A stretch of 33,904 bases of DNA from an uncultured Lachnospiraceae bacterium. Lineage in GTDB: Bacteria; Bacillota; Clostridia; Lachnospirales; Lachnospiraceae. Made by a program: the position numbers and the translations under genes. The stretch spans positions 1 to 33,904 of the forward strand of contig CADBIU010000017.1 in the NCBI GenBank assembly GCA_902794825.1, written 5' to 3'. The notes under the pieces were generated by a model. That model worked only from the letters and a program-made list of their open reading frames with translations. It had not been told where the DNA came from and did no database searches. Position 1 is the first letter of the stretch, and every line of letters starts with the position of its first letter. Below, in pieces: positions 6,710-24,390 of this stretch.

Positions 6710-7216
6710 TCATGCGATATTATCGGGATTAAAGAGCCTTCCGCGGAAAGGCAGCAACACCTGAAGAAGGAGCTGCCCAAGGCCCATACAGGAGATCAGT
6801 TCGCCCAAACCGACAGTAAGCATAAAGAAAGGAATGCCGCCGGGGATGTGATAGGCGTAGGTCAGAACAAACGGGATGATCAGAGCGTTGGAGACAATGG
6901 GAGGGATCGCGCATAGGAAGCGGTTTTTACGAAGCGCGCAGGATCCCAAGGCCCCGAGCAGTGTCGCGAGGGTTCCGAAAATAACATCAGGAAGCACACA
7001 TCCGGTCAGGATATTGCTGAGAAGACAGCCGAGCGTCAGACCCGGGATCGCGGCGGGAGTGAAGAAAGGCATGATCGTAAGAGCCTCTGAAAAACGGACC
7101 TGTATGGCGCCGCTCGCCAGATCGAACCCGGCGGCGACCATGGTCAGGACTGTATAAAGCGCGGCAATGAGGGCCGCCTGAGTGATATAAGCGGTTTTCT
7201 TTGATATTTTGCTCAT
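6710..7216 (-). CDS. queT: QueT transporter family protein (queuosine precursor ECF S-component)
   Basis: A 168-aa, strongly hydrophobic protein with about five or six membrane helices. It matches the QueT/COG4708 family: the N-terminus AYITQAALIAALYTVLTM, then SGAIQVRFSEALTIMPFFTP, a GLTLGCLLSNI loop and a C-terminal GLGELISCMGLGQ stretch. QueT proteins are substrate-capture subunits of group II ECF transporters for queuosine precursors (preQ0/preQ1 or queuine) and use an ECF ATPase/T module encoded elsewhere. No such module lies in the window. The start MSKISKK at 7216 was chosen because the frame further upstream has no ribosome binding site and reads unlike the family; an AAGAAGG lies about 15 nt upstream. 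It stands alone and converges on the GH3 gene. The family call is confident; the ligand is by family. Confidence 0.88.
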   Translation of the reverse strand: MSKISKKTAYITQAALIAALYTVLTMVAAGFDLASGAIQVRFSEALTIMPFFTPAAIPGLTLGCLLSNILTGCVLPDVIFGTLATLLGALGSCALRKNRFLCAIPPIVSNALIIPFVLTYAYHIPGGIPFFMLTVGLGELISCMGLGQLLLQVLLPFRGRLFNPDNIA

Positions 7217-7330
7217 AATGTGTTGTGTTAACCTTCTTTCATCGTGATAAACATACCGATTTCTACGATACTGTAAAATAGCATAACCGTCGGAAAATAA
7301 CAAGAAAAAACGGATGGAACACCTTTTGTT

Positions 7331-7339
7331 TGTTATAAT
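7331..7339 (+). promoter_or_regulatory. Extended -10 promoter for the lacI-type regulator
   Basis: TGTTATAAT is a consensus -10 with TG extension, 42 bp before the regulator ATG. The -35 region is poor. A small hairpin (GGTGAG at 7346-7351 with CTCACC at 7361-7366) would lie at the very 5' end of the transcript, just ahead of the ribosome binding site. Confidence 0.6.
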
Positions 7340-7380
7340 GGTTACGGTGAGAAGGAGAAACTCACCCGGAGGGGTATGCA

Positions 7381-12233: not shown

Positions 12234-12908
12234 ATGAGGAATCTGTTTGGACAGGAAGGACCGGTGATGCGCGCGATCAGCGACCTGAGCACGCTGGTGT
12301 TTCTCAATATTTTGACAGTGATCTTCTGTATTCCGATAGTGACGGCAGGCGCGTCCCTCGCGGCAATGCACTATGTGATCATGGAGATGATCGAGGATAG
12401 GGGCGGCGGGCTGCTGCAGGAATTTTGGAAGCGATTCAGGGAAAACCTGAGGAATGCCACGCCGGTATGGCTGATCCTGCTGGCGGCTGCGGCATTTCTG
12501 TACGCGGACCAGCGGATCATCGCAGGCGGGCAGCTCGGTCTTCCCCGTGCGATGCTGATCCCGATCTACGTGGGAGCTTTTGTGGTTGCGGCTGTCTATG
12601 TGTACGCGATTCCGCTGACAGCGAGGTTCGTGTATTCCACAGGCGCAGTGTTCAGGAACGCGGTGATCCTGGCTGCGGCATATCTGCCCCGGACGATCCT
12701 GATGGCTGCGATCACGGTGGCGATCCCTTACCTGTTCGCGAATGTCTCAAGGCTTATGCCGCTGTTCTTCCTGCTCGGACTTTCGCTCCCGGCTTACTTG
12801 TGTGCGCTGCTGTACAGGCCGGTGTTTGAAAAGATGATCGGGAAGAGGGAGGACGAGGACAGGCCATGGGTACTTCCGGAGGATGACACTGAGGGAAATG
12901 AGGAATAA
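12234..12908 (+). CDS. YesL family (DUF624) membrane protein
   Basis: A 224-aa membrane protein with five or six hydrophobic segments. The start MRNLFGQEGPVMRAISDLST and the following FLNILTVIFCIPIVTAGAS match the DUF624/YesL signature (NLF..DGP.MR, then PIVT.G). Members are commonly encoded beside carbohydrate ABC transporters of Firmicutes; their molecular function is not established. It lies 54 bp after the transporter terminator and 19 bp before malQ, with AAGGAC as ribosome binding site. The C-terminus is hydrophilic and acidic (GKREDEDRP). It is likely the first gene of a unit with malQ and the glucosidase. Confidence 0.88.
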   Translation: MRNLFGQEGPVMRAISDLSTLVFLNILTVIFCIPIVTAGASLAAMHYVIMEMIEDRGGGLLQEFWKRFRENLRNATPVWLILLAAAAFLYADQRIIAGGQLGLPRAMLIPIYVGAFVVAAVYVYAIPLTARFVYSTGAVFRNAVILAAAYLPRTILMAAITVAIPYLFANVSRLMPLFFLLGLSLPAYLCALLYRPVFEKMIGKREDEDRPWVLPEDDTEGNEE

Positions 12909-12927
12909 GTTTCAGCAAGGAGGAGTT

Positions 12928-14421
12928 ATGCGTACAAGCGGAATTTTATTTCCGATATTCAGTCTGCCCGGCAAATACGGGATCGGCTGCTTTTCGGAGG
13001 AAGCGTATAAGTTTGTGGATTTTCTTGGGGAAGCGAGACAGACCTACTGGCAGATCCTGCCGCTTGGTCCTACCGGCTATGGAGACTCGCCTTATCAGTC
13101 CTTCTCGACATTTGCGGGGAATCCGTATCTGATCAGCCTTGAGGACCTGATCGAACAGGGACTGCTCACAAAGAAGGAATGTGACGAGGTGGATTTCGGC
13201 GACGGACTGGAAGTGGACTACGGAAAGCTCTACAACGGCCGCCGGGATCTTCTCAGGAAGGCTTATCTCAGAAGCGGACATAAGGATACACAGGAATTTG
13301 CCGATTTCCAAAAGGACAACGAATTCTGGCTGCGCGACTACGCCCTCTTTATGGCGGTCAAAAAAGTGCACGAAGGAGCCGGACTGAGCGGCTGGGAGCC
13401 TGATATCCGCGACTATAAAGCCGAAGCAGTAAAAGAGTGGTCAGAAAAACTTCAGGACGAGATCGGGTTTTATGAGTATCTGCAGTTCGAGTTCGCAAGG
13501 CAGTGGAAGAAACTCAAGGACTACGCGTCAGAAAAAGGAATCTCTATTATCGGAGATATCCCGATCTATGTCTCTGCGGACAGTTCTGATTTCTGGGCTC
13601 ACAGGGAACTGTTCCAGCTCGATGAGAGGGGCCGCATCCGCATGATCGCGGGCGTGCCTCCGGACGGTTTCTCCGCCACGGGACAGGTGTGGGGGAATCC
13701 CCTGTATAACTGGGAGAAGCACAAGGAAACCGGCTATGACTGGTGGATCCGCCGTATTGCCAAGTGCAAGGAGCTGTACGATGTCATCAGGATCGACCAT
13801 TTCCGCGGGTTTGATGAATATTTTGCCATCCCTGCTGAGTCGGATACGGCGGCATCGGGCCACTGGGAAAAGGGACCGGGCACAGACCTCTTCGATGCGA
13901 TTAAGGCTGCTCTTGGAGAGACGCCGATCATCGCGGAGGATCTGGGGTACGTTACCGAGACAGTGCGCCAGCTTGTGCGCGACACAGGCTTCCCCAACAT
14001 GAAGGTGCTGGAGTTCGCGTTCGACTCAAGAGATTCCTCGGGAGCTATGGAGTATCTGCCCTATCGCTATAAGAACAACTGCGTGGTCTACACAGGCACA
14101 CACGACAATGAGACGCTGCGGGGCTGGATCGACAGCATCCTGCCGGTCGAGAGAAAGCAGGTCTGCGATTACCTTGATGTGCGCACCAAAGATCCGCAGG
14201 AGATCGTGGAGAAGATGATCATAGCAGCCTTCAGCAGTGTAGCGGACTACTGCATCATTCCGCTGCAGGACTATCTGGGGCTGGACAACAGGGCTCGGAT
14301 CAACCAGCCTTCCACAAACGGCAAGAACTGGAAGTGGAGAGTGAAGAAGGAAGCCCTGAACGGAAGACTGTCAGGAAGGATCGCGGAATTGACGGCCCTG
14401 TACGGAAGACTTCCGGAGTGA
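12928..14421 (+). CDS. malQ: 4-alpha-glucanotransferase (amylomaltase, GH77)
   Basis: A 497-aa enzyme that transfers alpha-1,4-glucan segments between maltodextrins in the cytoplasm. GH77 features are complete: RTSGILFPIFSLPGKYGIG at the N-terminus, the TGYGDSPYQSFSTFAGNPY loop, nucleophile Asp290 in IRIDHFRGF, acid/base Glu337 in IIAEDLG, and the third carboxylate Asp393 in GTHDNET. Length is normal. The frame opens at 12883, overlapping DUF624, but the start at 12928 has AAGGAGGAG six bases upstream. It follows DUF624 and precedes oligo-1,6-glucosidase, so imported dextrins can be disproportionated and then cleaved to glucose. Confidence 0.97.
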   Translation: MRTSGILFPIFSLPGKYGIGCFSEEAYKFVDFLGEARQTYWQILPLGPTGYGDSPYQSFSTFAGNPYLISLEDLIEQGLLTKKECDEVDFGDGLEVDYGKLYNGRRDLLRKAYLRSGHKDTQEFADFQKDNEFWLRDYALFMAVKKVHEGAGLSGWEPDIRDYKAEAVKEWSEKLQDEIGFYEYLQFEFARQWKKLKDYASEKGISIIGDIPIYVSADSSDFWAHRELFQLDERGRIRMIAGVPPDGFSATGQVWGNPLYNWEKHKETGYDWWIRRIAKCKELYDVIRIDHFRGFDEYFAIPAESDTAASGHWEKGPGTDLFDAIKAALGETPIIAEDLGYVTETVRQLVRDTGFPNMKVLEFAFDSRDSSGAMEYLPYRYKNNCVVYTGTHDNETLRGWIDSILPVERKQVCDYLDVRTKDPQEIVEKMIIAAFSSVADYCIIPLQDYLGLDNRARINQPSTNGKNWKWRVKKEALNGRLSGRIAELTALYGRLPE

Positions 14422-14467
14422 GTTTTACGGGAAACATGTTTTCTGGCATTTAAGCAAGGAGGCGCTT

Positions 14468-16132
14468 ATGAAGAAGACCTGGTGGAAAGAAAGTGTGATT
14501 TATCAGATTTATCCCCGCAGTTTCGCGGACAGCAACGGAGACGGGATCGGAGACCTGAACGGGATCACCTCCAAGCTGGATTACCTTAAGAACCTGGGGA
14601 TCGATGTCATTTGGCTTTCCCCCGTTTACAAATCGCCCAACGACGACAACGGTTACGACATAAGCGATTATGAGGCGATCATGGACGAGTTCGGAACCAT
14701 GGAGGATTTTGACAGGATGCTGGCCGAAGCCCATGCCCGCGGGATCAAAATCGTGATGGACCTCGTGGTCAACCACACCTCCGACGAACACAAATGGTTC
14801 CTTGAGAGCCGCTCCTCAAAGGACAATCCCAAGAGGGATTACTATTTCTGGAGGGAAGGGAAGGACGGCAGAGAGCCCAATAACTGGGGATCCTGGTTCT
14901 CCGGCTCTGCCTGGAAGTACGATGAGACGACGGACATGTACTACCTGCACCTGTTCTCCCCCAAGCAGCCCGACCTCAACTGGGACAATCCGGTGGTGAG
15001 AAAAGAGGTCTTCGACATGATGACCCGCTGGTGTGAAAAGGGCATCGACGGTTTCCGCATGGACGTGATCAGCCTGATCTCCAAGCCGGCAGGCCTGCCT
15101 GACGCGCCGCTCATGAATGAGCTCTACGGAGACTGCGGCTGCACGGCAAACGGCCCGCATGTCCACGAGTATCTGCAGGAGATGAACCGCGAAGTCCTCT
15201 CAAAGTATGACATCATGACTGTCGGCGAGACGGCCTGCGTCACTTTGGAGGAGGCCAAAAAATACGCGAACAGCGAGGGCACAGAGCTGAATATGGTGTT
15301 CCAGTTTGAACATGTCGGCCTCGACGGTGACGCGGAGTTCAAGTGGTCCACAAGGAAGATGCCGCTCGTCCCTCTCAAGGAGAACCTGACCAAATGGCAG
15401 AAAGGCCTCGACGGGGTTGCGTGGAACAGCCTGTACTTCTGCAATCACGACCAGCCGCGTGTCATCAACCGCCTCGGTGACCCTTCAGACGAACTGCGCG
15501 AGGTATCCGCCAAGTGCATCGCCACATGCCTCCATATGATGCAGGGAACACCCTATGTCTATCAGGGCGAAGAACTCGGAATGGTCAACTATCCTTTCCG
15601 CACGGTAAAGGATTTCAACGACCTGGAGTCTATCAATGCATACTATGAGCTCACAGAGAAGATGGGATGGGATCCCAAGGAGATCTTCCCTAAGATCGCG
15701 AACAAGAGCCGCGACAACGCCCGCACGCCCATGCAGTGGGATGACTCGGCGAACGCAGGTTTTACGACAGGAACCCCCTGGCTCGCTGTGAACCCGAACT
15801 ATGTTAAGATCAACGCGGCGGATCAGGTGATCCGCGAAGACTCTGTCTTTAACTACTATAAGAAACTGATCGAGCTGCGCCACACCTACGATATCATCGT
15901 TTATGGCCGCTACGAACTGCAGATGGCGGAGGATCCGGATCTCTACGTCTATACAAGGGAACTGGACGGTCACAAACTCCTTGTGGTCTGCAACTTCTCC
16001 GACCATGAGAGAGAGTTCATGCCTGACGAAGAATTCCGCGAGGGAAAGGTACTGATCCGGAACCTTGATAACAACAATATTCTGGACGGGATACTGGAGC
16101 CGTATGAGGCGTATGTCATCTATGCGGAGTAA
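14468..16132 (+). CDS. Oligo-1,6-glucosidase / alpha-glucosidase (GH13_31)
   Basis: A 554-aa cytoplasmic alpha-glucosidase. The GH13 conserved regions are all present: DLVVNHTSDEH (region I), GFRMDVIS with nucleophile Asp199 (II), TVGETA with acid/base Glu254 (III), and NHDQPR with Asp328 (IV), plus QPDLNWDNP (V). Valine follows the nucleophile (Val200), the residue associated in GH13_31 with alpha-1,6 preference (isomaltase, oligo-1,6-glucosidase) rather than the maltase Thr/Ala. AAGGAGG precedes the ATG. It lies 46 bp after malQ and before a strong terminator, so it closes the alpha-glucan locus. Trehalose-6-phosphate hydrolase is a relative, but no PTS or trehalose regulator is present. 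Confidence 0.93.
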   Translation: MKKTWWKESVIYQIYPRSFADSNGDGIGDLNGITSKLDYLKNLGIDVIWLSPVYKSPNDDNGYDISDYEAIMDEFGTMEDFDRMLAEAHARGIKIVMDLVVNHTSDEHKWFLESRSSKDNPKRDYYFWREGKDGREPNNWGSWFSGSAWKYDETTDMYYLHLFSPKQPDLNWDNPVVRKEVFDMMTRWCEKGIDGFRMDVISLISKPAGLPDAPLMNELYGDCGCTANGPHVHEYLQEMNREVLSKYDIMTVGETACVTLEEAKKYANSEGTELNMVFQFEHVGLDGDAEFKWSTRKMPLVPLKENLTKWQKGLDGVAWNSLYFCNHDQPRVINRLGDPSDELREVSAKCIATCLHMMQGTPYVYQGEELGMVNYPFRTVKDFNDLESINAYYELTEKMGWDPKEIFPKIANKSRDNARTPMQWDDSANAGFTTGTPWLAVNPNYVKINAADQVIREDSVFNYYKKLIELRHTYDIIVYGRYELQMAEDPDLYVYTRELDGHKLLVVCNFSDHEREFMPDEEFREGKVLIRNLDNNNILDGILEPYEAYVIYAE

Positions 16133-16160: not shown

Positions 16161-16189
16161 GCCCCCGGCGAAATGCCGGGGGCCTTTTT
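16161..16189 (+). terminator. Intrinsic terminator after the glucosidase gene
   Basis: GCCCCCGGC and GCCGGGGGC form a 9-bp GC stem around GAAAT, followed by CTTTTT. It ends the alpha-glucan utilisation locus. Confidence 0.93.
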
Positions 16190-16245: not shown

Positions 16246-16254
16246 TGTTATAAT
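16246..16254 (+). promoter_or_regulatory. Extended -10 promoter for the ADA-fold fusion gene
   Basis: TGTTATAAT lies 46 bp before the GTG start, with no clear -35 element. With the terminator at 16161 just upstream, the gene probably forms its own transcription unit. Confidence 0.55.
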
Positions 16255-16299
16255 TAGACACTAAGCAATTATAACGACCGACAAGGAGACTTTTAAGCC

Positions 16300-18687
16300 G
16301 TGAAGTGGTTTCAGCGCTTTTACCTGGATAAAGAGAAAGATATGATCGTGGACCTGTACCGGGAGGAAGGCAGGGGCACCATGCACTTTGTGCTGTCTAC
16401 CCCCAACCACGGAACCGGAAATCTGATCCGGAACCTCGCGGAGCTCTGCGGGCTGCCGCTGTCGGAGGGAAAGAATGGGCTTTTGGTCATACGCGGGACA
16501 GTGCCCAGTTACATCGACGGCTATAACAGGCTGATCTATGTTTTCAGGCTGGGGGACACGAAGGTGGCCAATATCTACCCGGACGGGCGGGTGGAGACAA
16601 AGGCGCACATTCCGGCTATTTCCAAGACACTGATGAGCCAGACCAAGGACTATCGTCTTGATGAGAAGCGCACGATCGTGAAGACGTACATCCGCAGCGA
16701 GAACAAGTTCCGCACGGATCTGCACACGCACATGAACGCGAATCTTCACCCGGACATACTGATCGCGCTGGGGATCTGCCATCAGATCCGCTATCCCCTC
16801 TACTATATTAAGAAACTGGGACTGCGCTGCTCGAAGGAGCAGAAGGAGAAGCTCGCCGCGCGCCGGGCAGTGTCGGAGGAGAAATACAAGGACTGCGGCC
16901 TTATAGGCAAGTACCTTGACAGAAGAATCGATGACAATACGTTTTTGAACTTTGCGGACCTGATCCTGAACGATCCTGAGGACGCGGAGTACAACATTCC
17001 GAGAATAAGAAGCTCACTGTCGATCCTCAAGGACGGACAGGCTGTCTTTACGAATCTGGAGAAGGTCTATCTGTACCGCTATGTTTTCTGTAAAGGACAG
17101 GAGGCGGAGGACAGGATCGAACTTGAAATGGAGAAAATAACCGCGATCCCAGATTCGGATATCCGCTCCGCGGTGCAGCAGATCCTGAAGGACCGGGAGA
17201 ACCCGGCGTACAGAGAGAACACATTATTCCAGGACAAGCTCCTGTGGATCGCCCGCAGTTACGCGAAGCAGGGCGTCTGCTACGCTGAGATATCGGACAC
17301 GACTCTGGTCAAAAGAGAGGGAGCCCCCGCGATGCTGGCGCAGGTCCACGCCGTCATGCCGGCAGTCACCAAGGAGACGGGCGTGCTTCTGCGGTTTCTG
17401 GCTGCGATCCGGCGCATTCCGCTGACGATCGTGAAGGATCAGGTGGAGACGGGAGATTATTTCCGGGAGAATCTGCAGACGCTGCGGGAGATCATCGCGG
17501 ATCCCTATGTGGCGGGGAGCGATATCATCGGCGAGGAGCTCAACGATATAAGGGATATTGCGCCGGTGCTGCACGAACTGGTGAAGATCGCGCAGGCGGA
17601 TCCGGGATTTGTGATCAGGATCCACGCGGGCGAGAACGACGGACTGCAGGATAACATAGCGAACAGCCTGAAGTGCGTGAAGGAGGCGCTGGCTCCGGGG
17701 CAGAAGATGCCGCATGTGAGGATCGGCCACGGGCTCTACACGCCGGATCTTCGGAGAGCGAAGGGAAAGGCCCTGATCAGTGAGTTGAAAGAGAGCGGCG
17801 CTGTGCTGGAGTTTCAGATCACCTCAAATGTTCGTCTCAACAATCTCAGCAGTATGAAGAGACATCCTCTCAGGCAGTATCTTGCGCTTGGGATCGGGTG
17901 TGTGCAGGGAACGGACGGAGGCGCCCTGTATGGAAGCGATTCCATCGACGAGCAGCTCTCTCTGGAGAAGATGCTGGAACTGAGCGATGAAGAGATGCAT
18001 ATGATGAGAGCGTGCGAGGACAGGGTCCTGCACAGGAGCCTGAAAGCTTTCGAGGCCAAATGCGCGGCTTATAAACAAAGTGCCGGAACAAAGGCAGAGA
18101 GAAATACGGAAGAGACAGAGCTCTCCCTGATCGGAAAGCGCTCGCTCCGCGCTACGGAAGCGCTTGAGGACCAGATCAGAGAGATGCCTCCGGACAAGAT
18201 CCCGGTCGTGATCGTCGGCGGGAGTTTCAGCCATGACAGCCACAGAGTGAAGATGACTGCGGAGAATAAGAAGAGGATCGACGATATTTTGGCAAATGAA
18301 GATCCGGAGAAGACTTTCTTCGTGATCGGACATTCGCTGCGCGGCTACGAACAGTATCTGGTGAAAGAAAATCGCGGCAGGTTTGAGATCTTCGCCATGG
18401 TCCCGTCCATGATCACAGAGCCTGAGTACCGCAAACTCCGCGGCGCGAGAGTCGGGATCAGGGTCTCTATTGAACCTGTGCCGATGGGTACTTACAAAAG
18501 TTTCGCCTATGAGATCTTTAAGAGAAGGCCCTCAAGACTGATCGCTTTCGACGGCAACATCGCCGGGGCGAATATGATCCAGGAGGCCAAGAACAGCAAG
18601 TATCCCTGCGTGATCCATGTCAACAGCAGATGCAAGCCGCTGAAAGTTAAAGCGGATTCGCTGGAAGGATATGTTAAACTGTTCTGA
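16300..18687 (+). CDS. Adenosine-deaminase-fold protein with C-terminal Rossmann-like (SLOG-type?) domain
   Basis: A 795-aa protein, more than twice the length of ordinary adenosine deaminases (about 340). Residues 1-135 are an unrecognised N-terminal region. The ADA/AMP-deaminase barrel spans about 136-590 with metal ligands His142 and His144 (LHTHMNANL), His442 and Glu445 (IRIHAGEND), His477 (RIGHG) and Asp539 (GTDGG). The Asp normally following the last ligand is Gly540. Insertions after the first motif add more than 100 residues. Residues about 630-795 form a separate alternating beta/alpha unit (VVIVGGS, FFVIGH, IFAMVP, LIAFDG, CVIHV), resembling SLOG-type nucleotide-ligand sensors. The start is GTG at 16300 with AAGGAG 11 bases upstream. 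It is monocistronic. The barrel is certain; the substrate and tail function are unknown. Its size recalls RdrB of the RADAR defence system, but no RdrA-like ATPase is adjacent. Confidence 0.8.
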   Translation: MKWFQRFYLDKEKDMIVDLYREEGRGTMHFVLSTPNHGTGNLIRNLAELCGLPLSEGKNGLLVIRGTVPSYIDGYNRLIYVFRLGDTKVANIYPDGRVETKAHIPAISKTLMSQTKDYRLDEKRTIVKTYIRSENKFRTDLHTHMNANLHPDILIALGICHQIRYPLYYIKKLGLRCSKEQKEKLAARRAVSEEKYKDCGLIGKYLDRRIDDNTFLNFADLILNDPEDAEYNIPRIRSSLSILKDGQAVFTNLEKVYLYRYVFCKGQEAEDRIELEMEKITAIPDSDIRSAVQQILKDRENPAYRENTLFQDKLLWIARSYAKQGVCYAEISDTTLVKREGAPAMLAQVHAVMPAVTKETGVLLRFLAAIRRIPLTIVKDQVETGDYFRENLQTLREIIADPYVAGSDIIGEELNDIRDIAPVLHELVKIAQADPGFVIRIHAGENDGLQDNIANSLKCVKEALAPGQKMPHVRIGHGLYTPDLRRAKGKALISELKESGAVLEFQITSNVRLNNLSSMKRHPLRQYLALGIGCVQGTDGGALYGSDSIDEQLSLEKMLELSDEEMHMMRACEDRVLHRSLKAFEAKCAAYKQSAGTKAERNTEETELSLIGKRSLRATEALEDQIREMPPDKIPVVIVGGSFSHDSHRVKMTAENKKRIDDILANEDPEKTFFVIGHSLRGYEQYLVKENRGRFEIFAMVPSMITEPEYRKLRGARVGIRVSIEPVPMGTYKSFAYEIFKRRPSRLIAFDGNIAGANMIQEAKNSKYPCVIHVNSRCKPLKVKADSLEGYVKLF

Positions 18688-18810: not shown

Positions 18811-19377
18811 ATGGAAGATACCGCAATTATCGATCTGTACTGGAAGAGGGACGAACAGGCCATCGTCGAGACGGATCAAAAATATGGGAAATATTGTCAC
18901 ACAGTGGCGTACAATGTCCTGAACGATGTCGAGGACTCAAGAGAGTGCGTCAATGATACCTGGCTGCGCGCCTGGAACTCAATGCCTCCGAAGAGGCCTT
19001 CCGTGCTGCGCGCGTTTCTTGCCAAAATAACGCGAAATCTGGCTTTTGACCGCTACAGGGCGCGCAGTGCGGCGAAAAGGGGCAGCGGCGCTATGGAAGC
19101 TGTGCTCGATGAGCTGGCGGAGTGCGCGGACATGTCGGGAAACTGGAACGCCGAGGAGGCCTATATGGCCGCTGAGCTGAAGGAAGCCATCAACCGGTTT
19201 GCAGAGCAGCTGCCCGCAAGGGAGTGCGATCTGTTTGTGAGAAGATACTTTTTTGCAGAGGAGATCCCTGCCATTGCCAGGCGGTATCAGATGACTGAGA
19301 ACAACGTCACAGTAAGCCTGAGCAGGATCAGGAAGAAACTTCGGAAGTATCTTAAAGAGGGGGAATTTATCGAATGA
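18811..19377 (+). CDS. ECF-type RNA polymerase sigma factor
   Basis: A 188-aa sigma-70 family factor with region 2 at about 20-90 (YCHTVAYNVLNDVEDSRECV, then DTWLRAWNSMP and ITRNLAFDRYRARSA) and region 4 at about 130-182 (LPARECDLFVRRYFF, then IARRYQMTENNVTVSLSRIR). It lacks regions 1 and 3, as expected for group IV. AAGGG lies upstream of the ATG. Its TGA overlaps the ATG of the next gene (ATGA), linking it to a membrane protein that is the probable anti-sigma factor. The operon ends in a DUF4349 lipoprotein, which points to an envelope-stress response; the actual signal is not visible. Confidence 0.92.
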   Translation: MEDTAIIDLYWKRDEQAIVETDQKYGKYCHTVAYNVLNDVEDSRECVNDTWLRAWNSMPPKRPSVLRAFLAKITRNLAFDRYRARSAAKRGSGAMEAVLDELAECADMSGNWNAEEAYMAAELKEAINRFAEQLPARECDLFVRRYFFAEEIPAIARRYQMTENNVTVSLSRIRKKLRKYLKEGEFIE

Positions 19378-20192
19378 GAGCGGAGGACTTATTTGAAGCG
19401 GTGGGCGGCATCGACGATAAACTGATCGCCCGAAGTGACCGGAGAGTGCGCAGTTCTCAGGAAAAGCCTTCCTCCGGAAAAGCCGCAAAAAGGACAAAAA
19501 AGAGAAAGAGCAGAAGAAGCGTGGGAGCGGAGATCTACCGCTTCACGGTGGTCGCGATGTCGACGGCAGTCGTTGTTTTCCTGTTTCTTATGGCCAGGGA
19601 CCTGTTGGGGATCCGTAACCTCTCCGACATCAGAAACCGTATAGCTTCGACACAGGAGAGCAGTATTGCCGAGCCGATGCAGGCGGAAGAAGCTGCGGCA
19701 GAGCAGGCGGAGGAATCCGCGGTGATGCGGGCGGAAGAAGCGTCAGAGAAGGCGGAAGCTTCCTCGGACCAGCGGGATTCGAATGAGGCGGAGGCTGAGG
19801 AATCCTCCGAGGTCGCGGAAAACAGAGCAGCCGGCAGCTTTTTCGGCAATAAGACGGCGGTGGACATGCTCGGAGATCTCAAAGGAGACTATGTAAGCCT
19901 TGAGATCATCTCGGTCGAGGACGAGGCAAACGGCGGCAGCCGCCTGGTGCCGGAGTATACCGAGGAAGGAGAGAAAGCTCTTTCGGAAGCTTTTTCAAAA
20001 GGAAAACCGACTCCGAAGGTATTTGCTGCCACCGGTGAGGCTACTTACTACGTATATCTCACGAAGAAGAACGGGGAAGTTCACAGAGCAGTCTTTTATG
20101 AAAACGCGTACGTCAGCATGGACAATATTCCCGGGGTTGTGATGAAGATTTCACAGGCGGATTACGAGGAGGTCAAAGCCCTATTCCGCTGA
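19374..20192 (+). CDS. Probable membrane anti-sigma factor / hypothetical protein
   Basis: A 272-aa single-pass membrane protein. The cytoplasmic N-terminus (1-56, MRAEDLFEAVGGIDDKLIAR) is short and becomes very basic before the membrane helix at about 57-75. The outer part has a low-complexity Ala/Glu/Ser stretch (about 95-155) and a folded C-terminal region (about 165-272). No HxxxCxxC zinc anti-sigma motif is present. The gene overlaps the sigma factor stop by four bases, so it is translationally coupled. Position and topology argue for a sigma-sequestering partner, but no named domain was recognised. The lipoprotein gene follows 13 bp later. Confidence 0.65.
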   Translation: MRAEDLFEAVGGIDDKLIARSDRRVRSSQEKPSSGKAAKRTKKRKSRRSVGAEIYRFTVVAMSTAVVVFLFLMARDLLGIRNLSDIRNRIASTQESSIAEPMQAEEAAAEQAEESAVMRAEEASEKAEASSDQRDSNEAEAEESSEVAENRAAGSFFGNKTAVDMLGDLKGDYVSLEIISVEDEANGGSRLVPEYTEEGEKALSEAFSKGKPTPKVFAATGEATYYVYLTKKNGEVHRAVFYENAYVSMDNIPGVVMKISQADYEEVKALFR

Positions 20193-20205
20193 AGGGAGGA
20201 TCATT

Positions 20206-21393
20206 ATGAAAAAGTTTAAACTGGCGGCAGCCGCTGTTTTGGCGGCGTCTCTGTGTCTGACCGCCTGCGGCGGTTCATCGGGCACGAACAGCGCCTCTTA
20301 TAAAGAGGAGGCCGGAGCGGCGGGCGATTATGCCTACGAATCTTATGCCGGAGACGCTTACGCCGCAGAGGAAGCCGCGCAGACGGCAGAGGGTGAGGAC
20401 TATAAGGCGGACAGCGGATCGGGCGGTTCAACGGAATCGGCGCTGCGCGCGCAGGACGGCCAGAAGATCGTCTACACAGGCAATCTGAGTATCCAGACAC
20501 TGGAATATGAAAAGTCCGCGGCCAGTATCCGCAAGAAGATCAAGGACGCCGGAGGATTCTCGGAAGCTGAGAGCGAGCGCGACAACGATTACTACTGGTA
20601 CAACCGCAGCGGCGGTTCGGGCAACACGCGCTATCTGAGTATCACTGCGAGGATTCCCTCCGAGAAGTTTGAGGACTTCATTAATTCTCTGAGCGGAGAC
20701 GGAAAAGTCATGAACCGCTCTGTCAACGCTGAAAATATCAGTCAGGTATACGCGAACAAAGAGACTTACAAGAAGTCGCTCGAGAAGGAGCAGGAAAGGC
20801 TTCTGGAGATGATGGACAAGGCGCAGACCATCGAGGAGATGATCACTGTAGAGTCCAGACTCTCGGAAGTGGAGCGCCAGCTGAATGTCTACAAGACAGA
20901 TCTGGCTCAGATGGACAAGGATGTGGAGTTCTCCACGGTTTACATTGAACTTACGGAAGTGAAGCGCTATACGGAGGAAGTGAGCAGCACAACCTTTGGC
21001 GAGGAACTCAAATATGCGTTTGAAGACGCGATCAGCAGTTTCAAAAACTTCTGCGAAGGGATTATACTGTTTGTTGTAAGGAACTTCCCTTATCTGATCA
21101 TTCTGGCAGTGATCATTGTTCTGATCGTCCGGGCTATTGGCAGGAGCAGAGCAAAGAGGATCGCGATGATGTCGGATCCGGAATATGCGAAGATCGTAAA
21201 CGCCAAGGCCAGGGCCAAGGCAGAGGCGGACGCCAGAAAGAGAGAAGAGAAGGAAGCGAAGCGTAAGGGGCGCAAGGGACTCTTCGGGAGGAAGGACCCG
21301 GCTGCGGCGGAGCCAAAGTCCGAAAAGGCGGGAACAGTCGCTGCCGATGTGACGGAAGCGGAACCGACGGAGACACCAAAAGACAGTGAGTGA
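20206..21393 (+). CDS. DUF4349 domain-containing lipoprotein
   Basis: A 395-aa envelope protein with a lipoprotein signal (MKKFKLAAAAVLAASLCLTAC, lipobox LTAC), an acidic Ala/Tyr-rich linker, and the DUF4349 region (about 85-260): KIVYTGNLSIQTLEYEKSA, ITARIPSEKFEDFI, then a long coiled coil (LEKEQERLLEMMDKAQTIEE) ending in VEFSTVYIELTEV. A membrane helix at about 287-308 and a highly charged Lys/Arg/Glu cytoplasmic tail follow. The protein is thus tethered at both ends. GGGAGGA lies before the ATG. It is third in the sigma/anti-sigma operon. The molecular role of DUF4349 proteins is not established; effector or sensor of envelope stress is a guess. Confidence 0.85.
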   Translation: MKKFKLAAAAVLAASLCLTACGGSSGTNSASYKEEAGAAGDYAYESYAGDAYAAEEAAQTAEGEDYKADSGSGGSTESALRAQDGQKIVYTGNLSIQTLEYEKSAASIRKKIKDAGGFSEAESERDNDYYWYNRSGGSGNTRYLSITARIPSEKFEDFINSLSGDGKVMNRSVNAENISQVYANKETYKKSLEKEQERLLEMMDKAQTIEEMITVESRLSEVERQLNVYKTDLAQMDKDVEFSTVYIELTEVKRYTEEVSSTTFGEELKYAFEDAISSFKNFCEGIILFVVRNFPYLIILAVIIVLIVRAIGRSRAKRIAMMSDPEYAKIVNAKARAKAEADARKREEKEAKRKGRKGLFGRKDPAAAEPKSEKAGTVAADVTEAEPTETPKDSE

Positions 21394-21443: not shown

Positions 21444-22880
21444 ATGAATTATATTTGCACAGAGTACTATTTGCTGTTGTTTTTGACACTGATTCTGTAC
21501 TATATAATCCCCAAAGGAAAACAATGGATTGCACTGCTGATCGGCAGTGCAGTCTTTTATTGTCTTGTCTCAACCGATATCATGCAGTTATGCTTGTTTT
21601 TGGCCACGATTATTCTGAGTTTTCTGGGAGCGCTGCTGATTGAACGAAGCAAAGAGGGAAAACAGCGGCTCTTTATGCTGTGGGCGGTCATCATTCTGAC
21701 AGCCGCGCCGCTTCTGCTGTTTAAAGGAAGGGATTTTCTGCCTGCGCCGGATACCGGAAGGTTTTCTCTGATAGTACCTGTCGGACTGTCTTTTTATACT
21801 CTTCAGATCATCGCGTACCTGACAGATGTATACAGAAAAAAGATCGCGGCCCAGCGCAATCTGTTCAAATACGCGCTCTTTATTTCCTTTTTCCCACAGA
21901 TCATCCAGGGGCCTATTCCCCGCTATGAGCAGCTGGGAGATCAGCTGTTTGGCGGAACCCGCTTTCGTATGGAGAATATTGTCCGGGGAAGCCAGCGGAT
22001 CCTGTGGGGGCTCTTCCTGAAACTGATGATCGCGGATAAGGCGGCTGTCGCGGTTAACGAGATCTTTGACAATTACAGGATGTATGCGGGAGCATATATC
22101 TGGATTGCCGGAATTTTGTACAGCCTGCAGCTGTATACGGACTTTTTATCCTGCACGACGCTCGCGCAGGGAGCTTCGGAACTGTTTGGCATTGAGATCA
22201 TCGATAATTTTAATCATCCCTATTTTGCCGTATCTGTGCAGGATTTCTGGCGCAGATGGCACATCTCTCTGAGCACATGGCTGAAGGACTATGTCTATAT
22301 ACCGCTGGGAGGAAGCCGCGCCGGGAAACTGAGAAAGTATACTAATTTGTTTCTCACGTTTCTTATCAGCGGGTTCTGGCACGGGGAAGGCGTGAAATTT
22401 ATTTTCTGGGGTCTATTGCATGCTGTTTACCAGATAGTCGGATCGATCACCCGCGAAGGCAGAGACCGTCTGTATGAGATGTTGTTAATTCCGAAGGGAA
22501 CTTTTGCATGGAAATTGTATCGTACGATCGGCACCTTTTTCTGGGTAATGATCGCATGGATCATATTCAGGGCGGAGGGACTGCGCGCCGGACTTCATAT
22601 GATCCGGTCCATGTTCACAGTTTATAATCCATGGATCCTTCTAAACGGAGCGCTTACTTCCATAATGCCCTATCAGCAGTGGGAACTGCTCGGGGCAGCT
22701 CTTTTCGTACTGTTCACAGTCAGCAGAGCTCAGGAAAAGACAGAAGTGAGAAACTGGATCTCGCAGCAGCATATCACGATCCGATGGGGTCTTGCCCTGG
22801 TGTGTATAGCTGTCATTCTGGTGTTCGGTACGTACGGCTTCGGCTATGATGCACAGGCGTTTATATACGGAGGATTCTAA
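21444..22880 (+). CDS. MBOAT family O-acyltransferase
   Basis: A 478-aa polytopic membrane acyltransferase of the AlgI/DltB type. Signature stretches are PVGLSFYTLQIIAYLTDVYR, FFPQIIQGPI, FWRRWHISLSTWLKDYVYIP (His273) and FLISGFWHGEGVKFI with the catalytic His313. These enzymes move acyl groups, usually acetyl, across the membrane for addition to cell-surface polymers. It lies 50 bp after the DUF4349 gene; GGAG stands 12 bases before the ATG. The next gene encodes the matching SGNH-type protein, so the two probably work together on a polysaccharide or wall polymer. GC content appears lower here than in the flanking genes. Confidence 0.93.
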   Translation: MNYICTEYYLLLFLTLILYYIIPKGKQWIALLIGSAVFYCLVSTDIMQLCLFLATIILSFLGALLIERSKEGKQRLFMLWAVIILTAAPLLLFKGRDFLPAPDTGRFSLIVPVGLSFYTLQIIAYLTDVYRKKIAAQRNLFKYALFISFFPQIIQGPIPRYEQLGDQLFGGTRFRMENIVRGSQRILWGLFLKLMIADKAAVAVNEIFDNYRMYAGAYIWIAGILYSLQLYTDFLSCTTLAQGASELFGIEIIDNFNHPYFAVSVQDFWRRWHISLSTWLKDYVYIPLGGSRAGKLRKYTNLFLTFLISGFWHGEGVKFIFWGLLHAVYQIVGSITREGRDRLYEMLLIPKGTFAWKLYRTIGTFFWVMIAWIIFRAEGLRAGLHMIRSMFTVYNPWILLNGALTSIMPYQQWELLGAALFVLFTVSRAQEKTEVRNWISQQHITIRWGLALVCIAVILVFGTYGFGYDAQAFIYGGF

Positions 22881-22884
22881 AAAG

Positions 22885-24390
22885 ATGAGGGGGAAAACTA
22901 TCAGTGTATTGAAGACAGTGATATTCTGCTTTCTCGTCGCTGTGATCGTAGTAAGGACCGGCAATATCCTGACGCTCAAAGGAAAAGAGTATCTGGCGTA
23001 TTATTCCAGTGTGCAGCACAGTGAATTCTATGAGATGGAAAAAGATACTGTGGATGTATTGTTCTTGGGAACAAGTCATTCATATTGCGGATTCTCACCA
23101 CAGGAATTTTATGATCGCTGCGGGATCAGGAGCTATAACCTGGGAACCAGCCGGCAGAGCATTTGGCTCAGTTATTATTGGCTGAAAGAGGCACTTAAGA
23201 CACAGAAACCGAAGATAGTCGTCCAGGAACTGTATTATGCCGGCGGGTCTAATGAGAATGAGGCTTCCGTGCAGAAGGGCCTGTCTTTCATGAAATGGTC
23301 GCGGAATAAAGCGGAAGCAGTCAGCACAGCAGTGGAAGAATATCCCGAACTCAGTTTTAAGAGTTTCATTTTTCCGAATATGCGGTTTCACGGCAGATGG
23401 AATGAACTGACTGCAGAGGATTTCCCGCTTCCGGAGATCCGCGATACAGGAGCGCTTAAAGGATACGCGCCGACATTGGAACGCCTTGGAGAAACGGAGT
23501 ATAAACTGATTCGGGAAGCCGATGACGGAAAGAAAAATGATGAAGGATCAGGCTTCGAGTATTGGCCTGAGACTGCAGAGGAAGCACAGTGGCCGGATCT
23601 TTCAAAAGAATACATGGATAAGATAACAGCTCTGTGTAAGGAAAATGGGATCACGCTGGTTTTGGTAAAAACTCCGTCAGCCCGCGGGTGGTCGATGGAG
23701 GACCACAATGCTGCGAAGTCATATGCGCAGGAGAATGGACTGGCCTTTTATGACCTGAACACACTGAAATATTATAAAGCGATGAATTATGACATTTCCG
23801 TGGACAATAAAGATGAGGGACATGCCAACATATGGGGTGCTGCAAAAATCGCAGACCTTCTGGGGAATCTTTTGATCAGTGAGCAGAATGCACCCAGCAT
23901 AAAAGATAAGCAATGGGAGGAGACAGCGGCTTATTCGGAAAAGATTAAAAAAGAGATTGGCCTCATATACATCGACAACGCAGAGATGTACCTGAAGACG
24001 CTTTCAGAAGGCGATTACGATATCTTTGTATCCGTAAAAGGCAGCACTTCCGAAATGAAAGAAAACCTGAAGGAAGCGATGAGGGAGATTGGTTTCTCAA
24101 AGCCTATGGACGAGTACTATACTGCTGCCTGCGACATGAGAAACGCTGTGAAGCAGGAAGACGCCGGTGAGAAAGAGGCGCTTGTTGAAGGAACTGTTCA
24201 TAACGGGCTGATCGGATACAAAATTGCCAGCGGCTATGATCAGGAGGAGGCCGCAAGCATTCTGATCGACGGCGAGGAGTATTCGCTGAACAGAGAGGGC
24301 GTAAATATTGTCGTTTACAGCAAAACATTCCAAACAGTCCTCGATTCGGTCTGCCTTTCGTCAGATCACGATTATGAACTGCAAAGATGA
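22885..24390 (+). CDS. SGNH-like acyltransferase partner with C-terminal ILEI-like domain
   Basis: A 501-aa protein with an N-terminal membrane anchor (about 5-25) and an extracytoplasmic SGNH/DltD-AlgJ-like domain: FLGTSHS (Ser64), SYNLGTSRQS, and Asp310/His313 in DEGHANIW. It is expected to complete O-acylation using acyl groups delivered by the upstream MBOAT protein. Residues about 379-501 form a separate domain with DIFVSVKG, EAMREIGFS and GVNIVVYSKTFQTVLDSV, resembling ILEI-like carbohydrate-associated domains. The frame extends upstream to 22846 within the MBOAT gene; ATG 22885 was chosen because GGAGG lies upstream and the membrane anchor starts there. A perfect terminator follows. 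The ILEI assignment is from pattern memory and less certain. Confidence 0.82.
   Translation: MRGKTISVLKTVIFCFLVAVIVVRTGNILTLKGKEYLAYYSSVQHSEFYEMEKDTVDVLFLGTSHSYCGFSPQEFYDRCGIRSYNLGTSRQSIWLSYYWLKEALKTQKPKIVVQELYYAGGSNENEASVQKGLSFMKWSRNKAEAVSTAVEEYPELSFKSFIFPNMRFHGRWNELTAEDFPLPEIRDTGALKGYAPTLERLGETEYKLIREADDGKKNDEGSGFEYWPETAEEAQWPDLSKEYMDKITALCKENGITLVLVKTPSARGWSMEDHNAAKSYAQENGLAFYDLNTLKYYKAMNYDISVDNKDEGHANIWGAAKIADLLGNLLISEQNAPSIKDKQWEETAAYSEKIKKEIGLIYIDNAEMYLKTLSEGDYDIFVSVKGSTSEMKENLKEAMREIGFSKPMDEYYTAACDMRNAVKQEDAGEKEALVEGTVHNGLIGYKIASGYDQEEAASILIDGEEYSLNREGVNIVVYSKTFQTVLDSVCLSSDHDYELQR

Follow-up and report, generated by a model that had tools for sequence, protein, structure and literature searches.

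The closest described counterparts of the protein considered here are the canonical adenosine deaminases (ADAs; PF00962, TIGR01430) and two immune deaminases, RdrB of RADAR and Cad1, which are reported to convert ATP or dATP to inosine nucleotides. In mouse ADA, Asp19 bonds the 5′- and 3′-hydroxyls of the ribose (PMC12669630). Cad1 is a CARF-fused ADA and an ancillary effector of type III CRISPR. TaqCad1, a CRISPR deaminase specific for ATP, has neither of the canonical aspartates (mouse Asp19 and Asp296), with Gly264 and Asn549 in their stead, and restoring both aspartates raised activity and did not rescue adenosine deamination (PMC12669630). The metal-site histidines of Cad1 are spaced by 205 residues (H243 to H448) and 24 residues (H448 to H472; PMC11645235). 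Escherichia coli RdrB harbors H152, H154, H498, E501, and H530, together with three insertions: insertion 1 is N-terminal, insertion 2 divides the core, and insertion 3 follows H530 and holds interface residues 595 to 597 (PMC9994260). Finally, in the Thoeris protein ThsA (SIR2-SLOG), the C-terminal SLOG domain functions as a nucleotide sensor (PMC7272460, PMC12948488).

Here, we analyze a stretch of 33,904 nucleotides from an uncultured Lachnospiraceae bacterium (contig CADBIU010000017.1 of assembly GCA_902794825.1), hereafter the window, which encodes a large, apparently undescribed ADA relative. Searches of titles and the opening parts of abstracts for ADA with SLOG, rumen ADA or antiphage ADA, and stand-alone ADA defense, with subscription papers outside their scope, returned no description of this family.

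Architecture and genetic setting of the 795-residue protein

The open reading frame call gives a 795-codon frame with a GTG start on the forward strand, and the family alignment begins at this same GTG. A ribosome-binding site, AAGGAG, can be read by eye at 16283-16288. The features of the locus are as follows.

16161..16183, + strand: terminator-like hairpin 3′ of the upstream alpha-amylase gene, parting the amylase from the deaminase gene (scan)
16246..16254, + strand: candidate extended -10 promoter element, TGTTATAAT (by eye; absent from the consensus-scan list)
16300..18687, + strand: gene for the 795-residue multidomain adenosine-deaminase-like protein (frame, Pfam match, family alignment)
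16300..16704, + strand: N-terminal domain, residues 1-135, no fold assigned (alignment, Pfam, PDB, dN)
16717..16743, + strand: HxH metal-ligand segment, residues 140-148 (DLHTHMNAN), in which N146 occupies the canonical ADA D/E site (mouse Asp19) (alignment)
16780..17028, + strand: insert that interrupts the catalytic core at residues 161-243 and makes up some of the roughly 110 additional residues separating HxH from HAGE (spacing, conservation)
17029..17091, + strand: most conserved stretch, residues 244-264 (KDGQAVFTNLEKVYLYRYVFC), in which 16 of 21 columns do not vary (alignment)
17236..18054, + strand: remaining ADA barrel, residues 313-585, with HAGE (H442, E445), H477, and D539-G540 (Pfam, alignment)
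18055..18174, + strand: variable linker, residues 586-625, none of its 40 columns being invariant (alignment)
18175..18684, + strand: C-terminal Rossmann-like unit, residues 626-795 (VVIVGGS, FFVIGHSLRGYE, IFAMVPS, AFDGN) (conservation, reading by eye)

The fusion of a deaminase to a C-terminal unit in this protein is real, and the family is coherent. The deaminase core with its insert spans residues 136-585. Pfam A_deaminase (PF00962) matches residues 318-567 with an E value of 3.4e-15 and is found in all 35 aligned family members, and the HxH, HAGE, GHG, and Asp metal-binding and catalytic residues of this superfamily are all present. The metal ligands H142, H144, H442, H477, and D539, along with the catalytic E445, show no variation across the 35-row alignment. 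In a larger 77-row alignment that includes fragments, where 72 to 75 rows cover each active-site position, the same holds for HxH (72/72), H442 and E445 (74/74), H477 (73/73), and D539 (75/75). An earlier sequence-only reading had described an ADA barrel with intact metal ligands preceded by 135 residues of no known family, and both parts of that description are borne out. Residues 1 to about 149 of 10 members gave nothing usable against Pfam at E ≤ 10 (best E, 0.12), and the single PDB match of the N terminus, to RPB11 (E, 0.92), was taken as chance. Whole-gene dN/dS against four relatives of 93 to 94% identity is 0.06 to 0.07, indicative of purifying selection (a further sequence, L005, was left out since its indels shift the frame); over these four relatives, residues 1-140 have the lowest dN (0.003-0.012) of the three regions measured.

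The composition of the deaminase gene (GC 0.55, third-position GC 0.73) is close to that of the amylase gene (0.54 and 0.75) and therefore does not point to a recent foreign origin. Upstream lies a maltodextrin-type cluster (12234-16132) encoding a DUF624 protein, a 4-alpha-glucanotransferase (GH77), and the alpha-amylase. An ECF sigma-factor gene starts 123 bases downstream of the deaminase gene and opens a cassette (18811-21393) that also encodes a 272-residue protein and a DUF4349 protein. The 272-residue protein, without a Pfam match above the cut-off, is fast-diverging (30-47% identity in relatives, their sigma factor being at 52-83%) and is a possible anti-sigma factor. Further downstream (21444-24390), overlapping genes encode an MBOAT acyltransferase and a 514-residue protein without a Pfam match above the cut-off; the two perhaps form a pair for surface-polymer O-acetylation.

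Active site and spacing compared with canonical ADA, Cad1, and RdrB

The window protein shares the catalytic core and zinc site of canonical ADA and differs from it in being more than twice as long, in having three added regions, and in its substrate-contact residues. At position 146, the equivalent of mouse Asp19, 71 of 72 family rows have Asn and one has Ser; at position 540, the equivalent of Asp296, all 75 have Gly. In contrast, an alignment of 36 HAGE-bearing control frames shorter than 400 residues, taken from match loci of the family and phylum genomes, has Asp or Glu at the Asp19 site in 36/36 and Asp or Asn at the Asp296 site in 36/36 (Asn in 18). This family thus departs from the canonical residue pattern at both sites, in common with TaqCad1, with the replacements being Asn and Gly here versus Gly and Asn there. 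Since both adenosine-holding aspartates are replaced family-wide, free adenosine is an unlikely substrate, which is in accord with the earlier view that plain adenosine salvage was improbable, and a phosphorylated or otherwise modified nucleotide appears most likely. The Asp-site changes, as read from the alignments, argue against free adenosine and do not name the actual substrate; indeed, because restoration in TaqCad1 left adenosine unrescued, the residues at these two sites do not by themselves fix the substrate. The family probably acts on an adenine nucleotide other than free adenosine.

An ordinary salvage ADA with decorative extensions would account for the PF00962 match, the intact zinc site, and the PDB matches, which are to structures of plain ADAs or of ADA-like proteins. 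Both aspartate replacements speak against this explanation, as does an ordinary-ADA-sized frame that coexists with a family member in at least one genome (G341), and we consider it highly improbable. In the window's own genome (85% complete), there is no match to the PADLOC CARF-ADA model, which finds ordinary ADAs elsewhere, and the window protein may therefore be its only ADA-fold deaminase, with the caveat that this model misses the window protein as well.

Cad1 resembles this family in placing an ADA barrel within a larger multidomain protein, and the CARF-ADA model (PDLC01908) detects 24 of the 35 members searched. These matches cover only model positions 328-572 of 605, the ADA half, in the 6 members (of 10) for which positions are available; as ordinary ADAs match the same model far better (to 2.3e-62), a Cad1-specific match was dropped. 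Pfam matches of 10 N termini at E ≤ 10 include no CARF family. The two layouts also differ: the CARF domain of Cad1 is N-terminal, whereas the extra Rossmann-like unit of this family is C-terminal, and the 205- and 24-residue spacings of Cad1 correspond to 300 and 35 in the window protein.

The spacing resembles that of RdrB, a protein that the sequence-only reading had brought up on account of size. The two proteins are of similar size, and both have an N-terminal extension of about 140 to 150 residues before HxH and a large insert between HxH and HAGE, with ligands at 142/144/442/477 in the window protein versus 152/154/498/530 in E. coli RdrB. The HxH-to-HAGE distance is 300 residues here and 346 in E. 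coli RdrB, relative to 174 to 195 in 36 of 38 control frames (HxH was not found in L138, and L144 was a wrong pick at 257). From HAGE to the next His, the distance is 35 residues here, 32 in RdrB, and 24 in Cad1; it is 23 to 24 in the controls where this His was found (L091 and L154 being the exceptions). In spacing, the N-terminal extension and core insert agree with RdrB insertions 1 and 2. Insertion 3 is absent from the window protein, with 62 residues separating H477 from D539 (61 in Cad1, H472 to D533), and the window protein has a C-terminal domain as a further difference from RdrB. The NCBIfam RdrB model (NF041744) does not match the window protein at E ≤ 1 or its genome; this model matched 0 of 398 phylum genomes and no control genome. 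PADLOC searches of 35 members at E ≤ 10 include no RdrB among the matched families, a result that presumes an RdrB model in PADLOC. A long-frame match in genome G143, considered as an RdrB bridge, proved spurious, as the frame has no ADA motif.

The C-terminal unit as a candidate SLOG domain

The C-terminal unit reads as alternating β/α, with 24 of 170 columns invariant. By eye, it can be overlaid on a YpsA-type SLOG domain, a superfamily that Burroughs et al. are said to have studied in 2015: VVIVGGS corresponds to the GHR strand, FFVIGHSLRGYE to the GGAxGVD strand, IFAMVPS to the one that follows, and the YKSFAYEIF-to-AFDGNIAGAN stretch to the RNRxM-to-GGT region. A low-scoring hhalign alignment to YpsA has the same register. 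Profile comparison of the unit with the YpsA and DprA SLOG domains nonetheless gives a probability below 1%, with 15 or more of the 42 decoy clusters scoring above both, versus 95% for the YpsA-DprA positive control. The SLOG profiles were built from 9 YpsA homologs and from the DprA sequences of 10 loci, the other 20 of the 30 fetched having failed the motif filter, and the family alignment is shallow (Neff 2.6). The unit has no PDB match at E ≤ 10 and no Pfam match above the cut-off. The earlier proposal of a SLOG-like nucleotide sensor is thus unsupported by these sequence comparisons, although the unit is conserved, reads as β/α, and can be overlaid by eye; we regard SLOG identity as plausible and unproved.

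A Toprim fold was considered and rejected. Toprim_2 matches 6 of 35 members (best E, 0.024) and 3 of 10 isolated C termini (best E, 0.0066), the latter only around the AFDGN strand, and the spacing to the upstream Glu looks too short for what we take to be the Toprim motifs. Separately, the window's genome encodes a frame (L119; G000:C42:1381-1545) with a DprA-like SLOG half as its second part and an N terminus that is presumably Y1-transposase-like.

In ThsA, too, a Rossmann-like unit stands C-terminal to the effector enzyme. This family differs from ThsA in the enzyme and in that SLOG identity is proven for the ThsA unit and putative here.

Distribution, neighborhood, and possible function

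One scan of named genomes identified 79 distinct loci, the majority at full length. Across bacterial orders, family members have 47 to 94% identity to the window protein, the low end being defined by two copies from other genomes than these. The carriers comprise Lachnospiraceae, Erysipelotrichaceae, Eubacterium, Oscillospiraceae genera, and unplaced Clostridia, mostly as rumen or gut metagenome bins; at least two (Butyrivibrio sp. NC3005 and Lachnospiraceae bacterium FE2018) look like isolates. A quick tree of 70 rows intermixes bacterial orders, in which bin labels may be wrong. The gene is patchily present, an accessory pattern. In the bacterial family, 26 of 200 genomes match and 8 carry this protein family, the other 18 being weak matches, of which one is a spurious frame and the rest, as far as checked, are ordinary ADAs; in the phylum, 2 of 398 genomes carry it, and a third match is an ordinary ADA. 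Within the window's genus, 31 of 62 genomes match, of which 3 are weak and ordinary-ADA-like; the remaining 28 include some contig-cut pieces and one relic. This relic (L204 in G634:C57, about 7100-7360) is situated within a contig of 11.8 kb between the amylase (90%) and sigma-factor (81%) genes, and what survives of the gene is about 24 codons of the N terminus and two short internal stretches. Unless it is an assembly error, a genus relative can therefore do without the gene. No copies were found in phages or plasmids (tblastn, E ≤ 1e-5) or in viral contigs (pattern-seeded scans). A tblastn search of plasmids with one member (L085) at E ≤ 10 returned 42 records, whose named features are adenosine deaminases except for one ATP-binding protein; many have no listed feature, and the one opened is of ordinary size.

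For the gene neighborhood, 75 loci were reduced to 50 representatives below 80% identity, yielding 93 first neighbors of at least 110 residues, 92 of which were scanned (one above 1200 residues was dropped). Upstream, 28 of 46 first neighbors lie on the strand of the deaminase gene, and downstream, 32 of 47. Same-strand overlaps of 4 bases occur with different partners (downstream in L072, L040, L031, L026, and L020; upstream in L056 and L049), so in some lineages the deaminase gene is not its own transcription unit. Among the 25 commonest of 112 Pfam families, none occurs in more than 3 of the 92 neighbors and none is a purine-salvage family, a further point against an ordinary salvage enzyme; many belong to general metabolism. 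No first neighbor recurs beyond close kin. Among the families listed, the homologs are thus not consistently found in purine-salvage operons, in line with the role other than salvage that the sequence-only reading had suggested. PADLOC counts are of model families rather than proteins, with many generic models, and stand at 68 for the 92 first neighbors versus 79 for 92 distal genes of the same loci. Among the matches listed, the Pfam and PADLOC results reveal neither a recurrent purine operon nor a defense island. RdrA is absent from the 25 commonest Pfam and PADLOC families listed for the 92 first neighbors and from the PADLOC matches of nine other window proteins scanned.

These data bear on a one-gene immune effector, in which the C-terminal domain would sense infection and the deaminase would turn ATP or dATP to ITP or dITP so that growth halts, as a partnerless analog of RdrB or Cad1. 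The Cad1-like loss of both adenosine contacts, the RdrB-like spacing, the taxonomically mixed tree, the relic in a genus relative, and the lack of a recurrent partner gene speak for such an effector. On the other hand, defense models are not in excess nearby, phages, plasmids, and viral contigs yielded no copies, and the high conservation is not that of arms-race divergence; we regard this explanation as unlikely. The sequence-only reading had suggested a nucleotide-signaling or antiphage role; the antiphage role is possible and gained no positive evidence, with no RdrB among the PADLOC matches. The more specific proposal of a single-gene immune ATP/dATP deaminase of gut Bacillota, forming an RdrB-like oligomer with its own C-terminal SLOG-like sensor and dispensing with RdrA or a CRISPR partner, is quite doubtful.

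Conservation across orders, the many neighbor families of general metabolism, and the lack of a defense context would instead fit a nonimmune enzyme of metabolism or regulation whose substrate is another purine, be it a modified base, a dinucleotide, or a nucleotide-linked cofactor; the extra domains would then provide allostery or oligomerization. Patchy presence with loss and the lack of a recurrent metabolic neighbor among the families listed weigh against this, and we view it as somewhat unlikely.

We tentatively favor a stand-alone, three-part deaminase, possibly gated by a sensor, that acts on an adenine nucleotide bearing phosphate or some other modification. Architecture, conservation, substitutions, the lack of a recurrent partner gene, and patchy presence are observed, and from these we infer the substrate, gating, oligomer, and any protective role. 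In such a deaminase, the ADA-type zinc barrel with intact catalytic residues would be the enzymatic part, the N-terminal domain and core insert probably form either the interface of a homo-oligomer or a pocket for a ligand, and the C-terminal Rossmann-like domain would bind a nucleotide-like ligand and thereby switch the deaminase. The substrate would most likely be of the ATP/dATP type, as for Cad1 and RdrB, rather than adenosine.

The family joins, in one rumen and gut gene, the double adenosine-contact loss of TaqCad1, a layout like that of RdrB, and a C-terminal domain of another kind. If these proteins act on nucleotides, regulation by ATP deamination would reach beyond CRISPR and RADAR; if they act on something else, they point to new purine chemistry.
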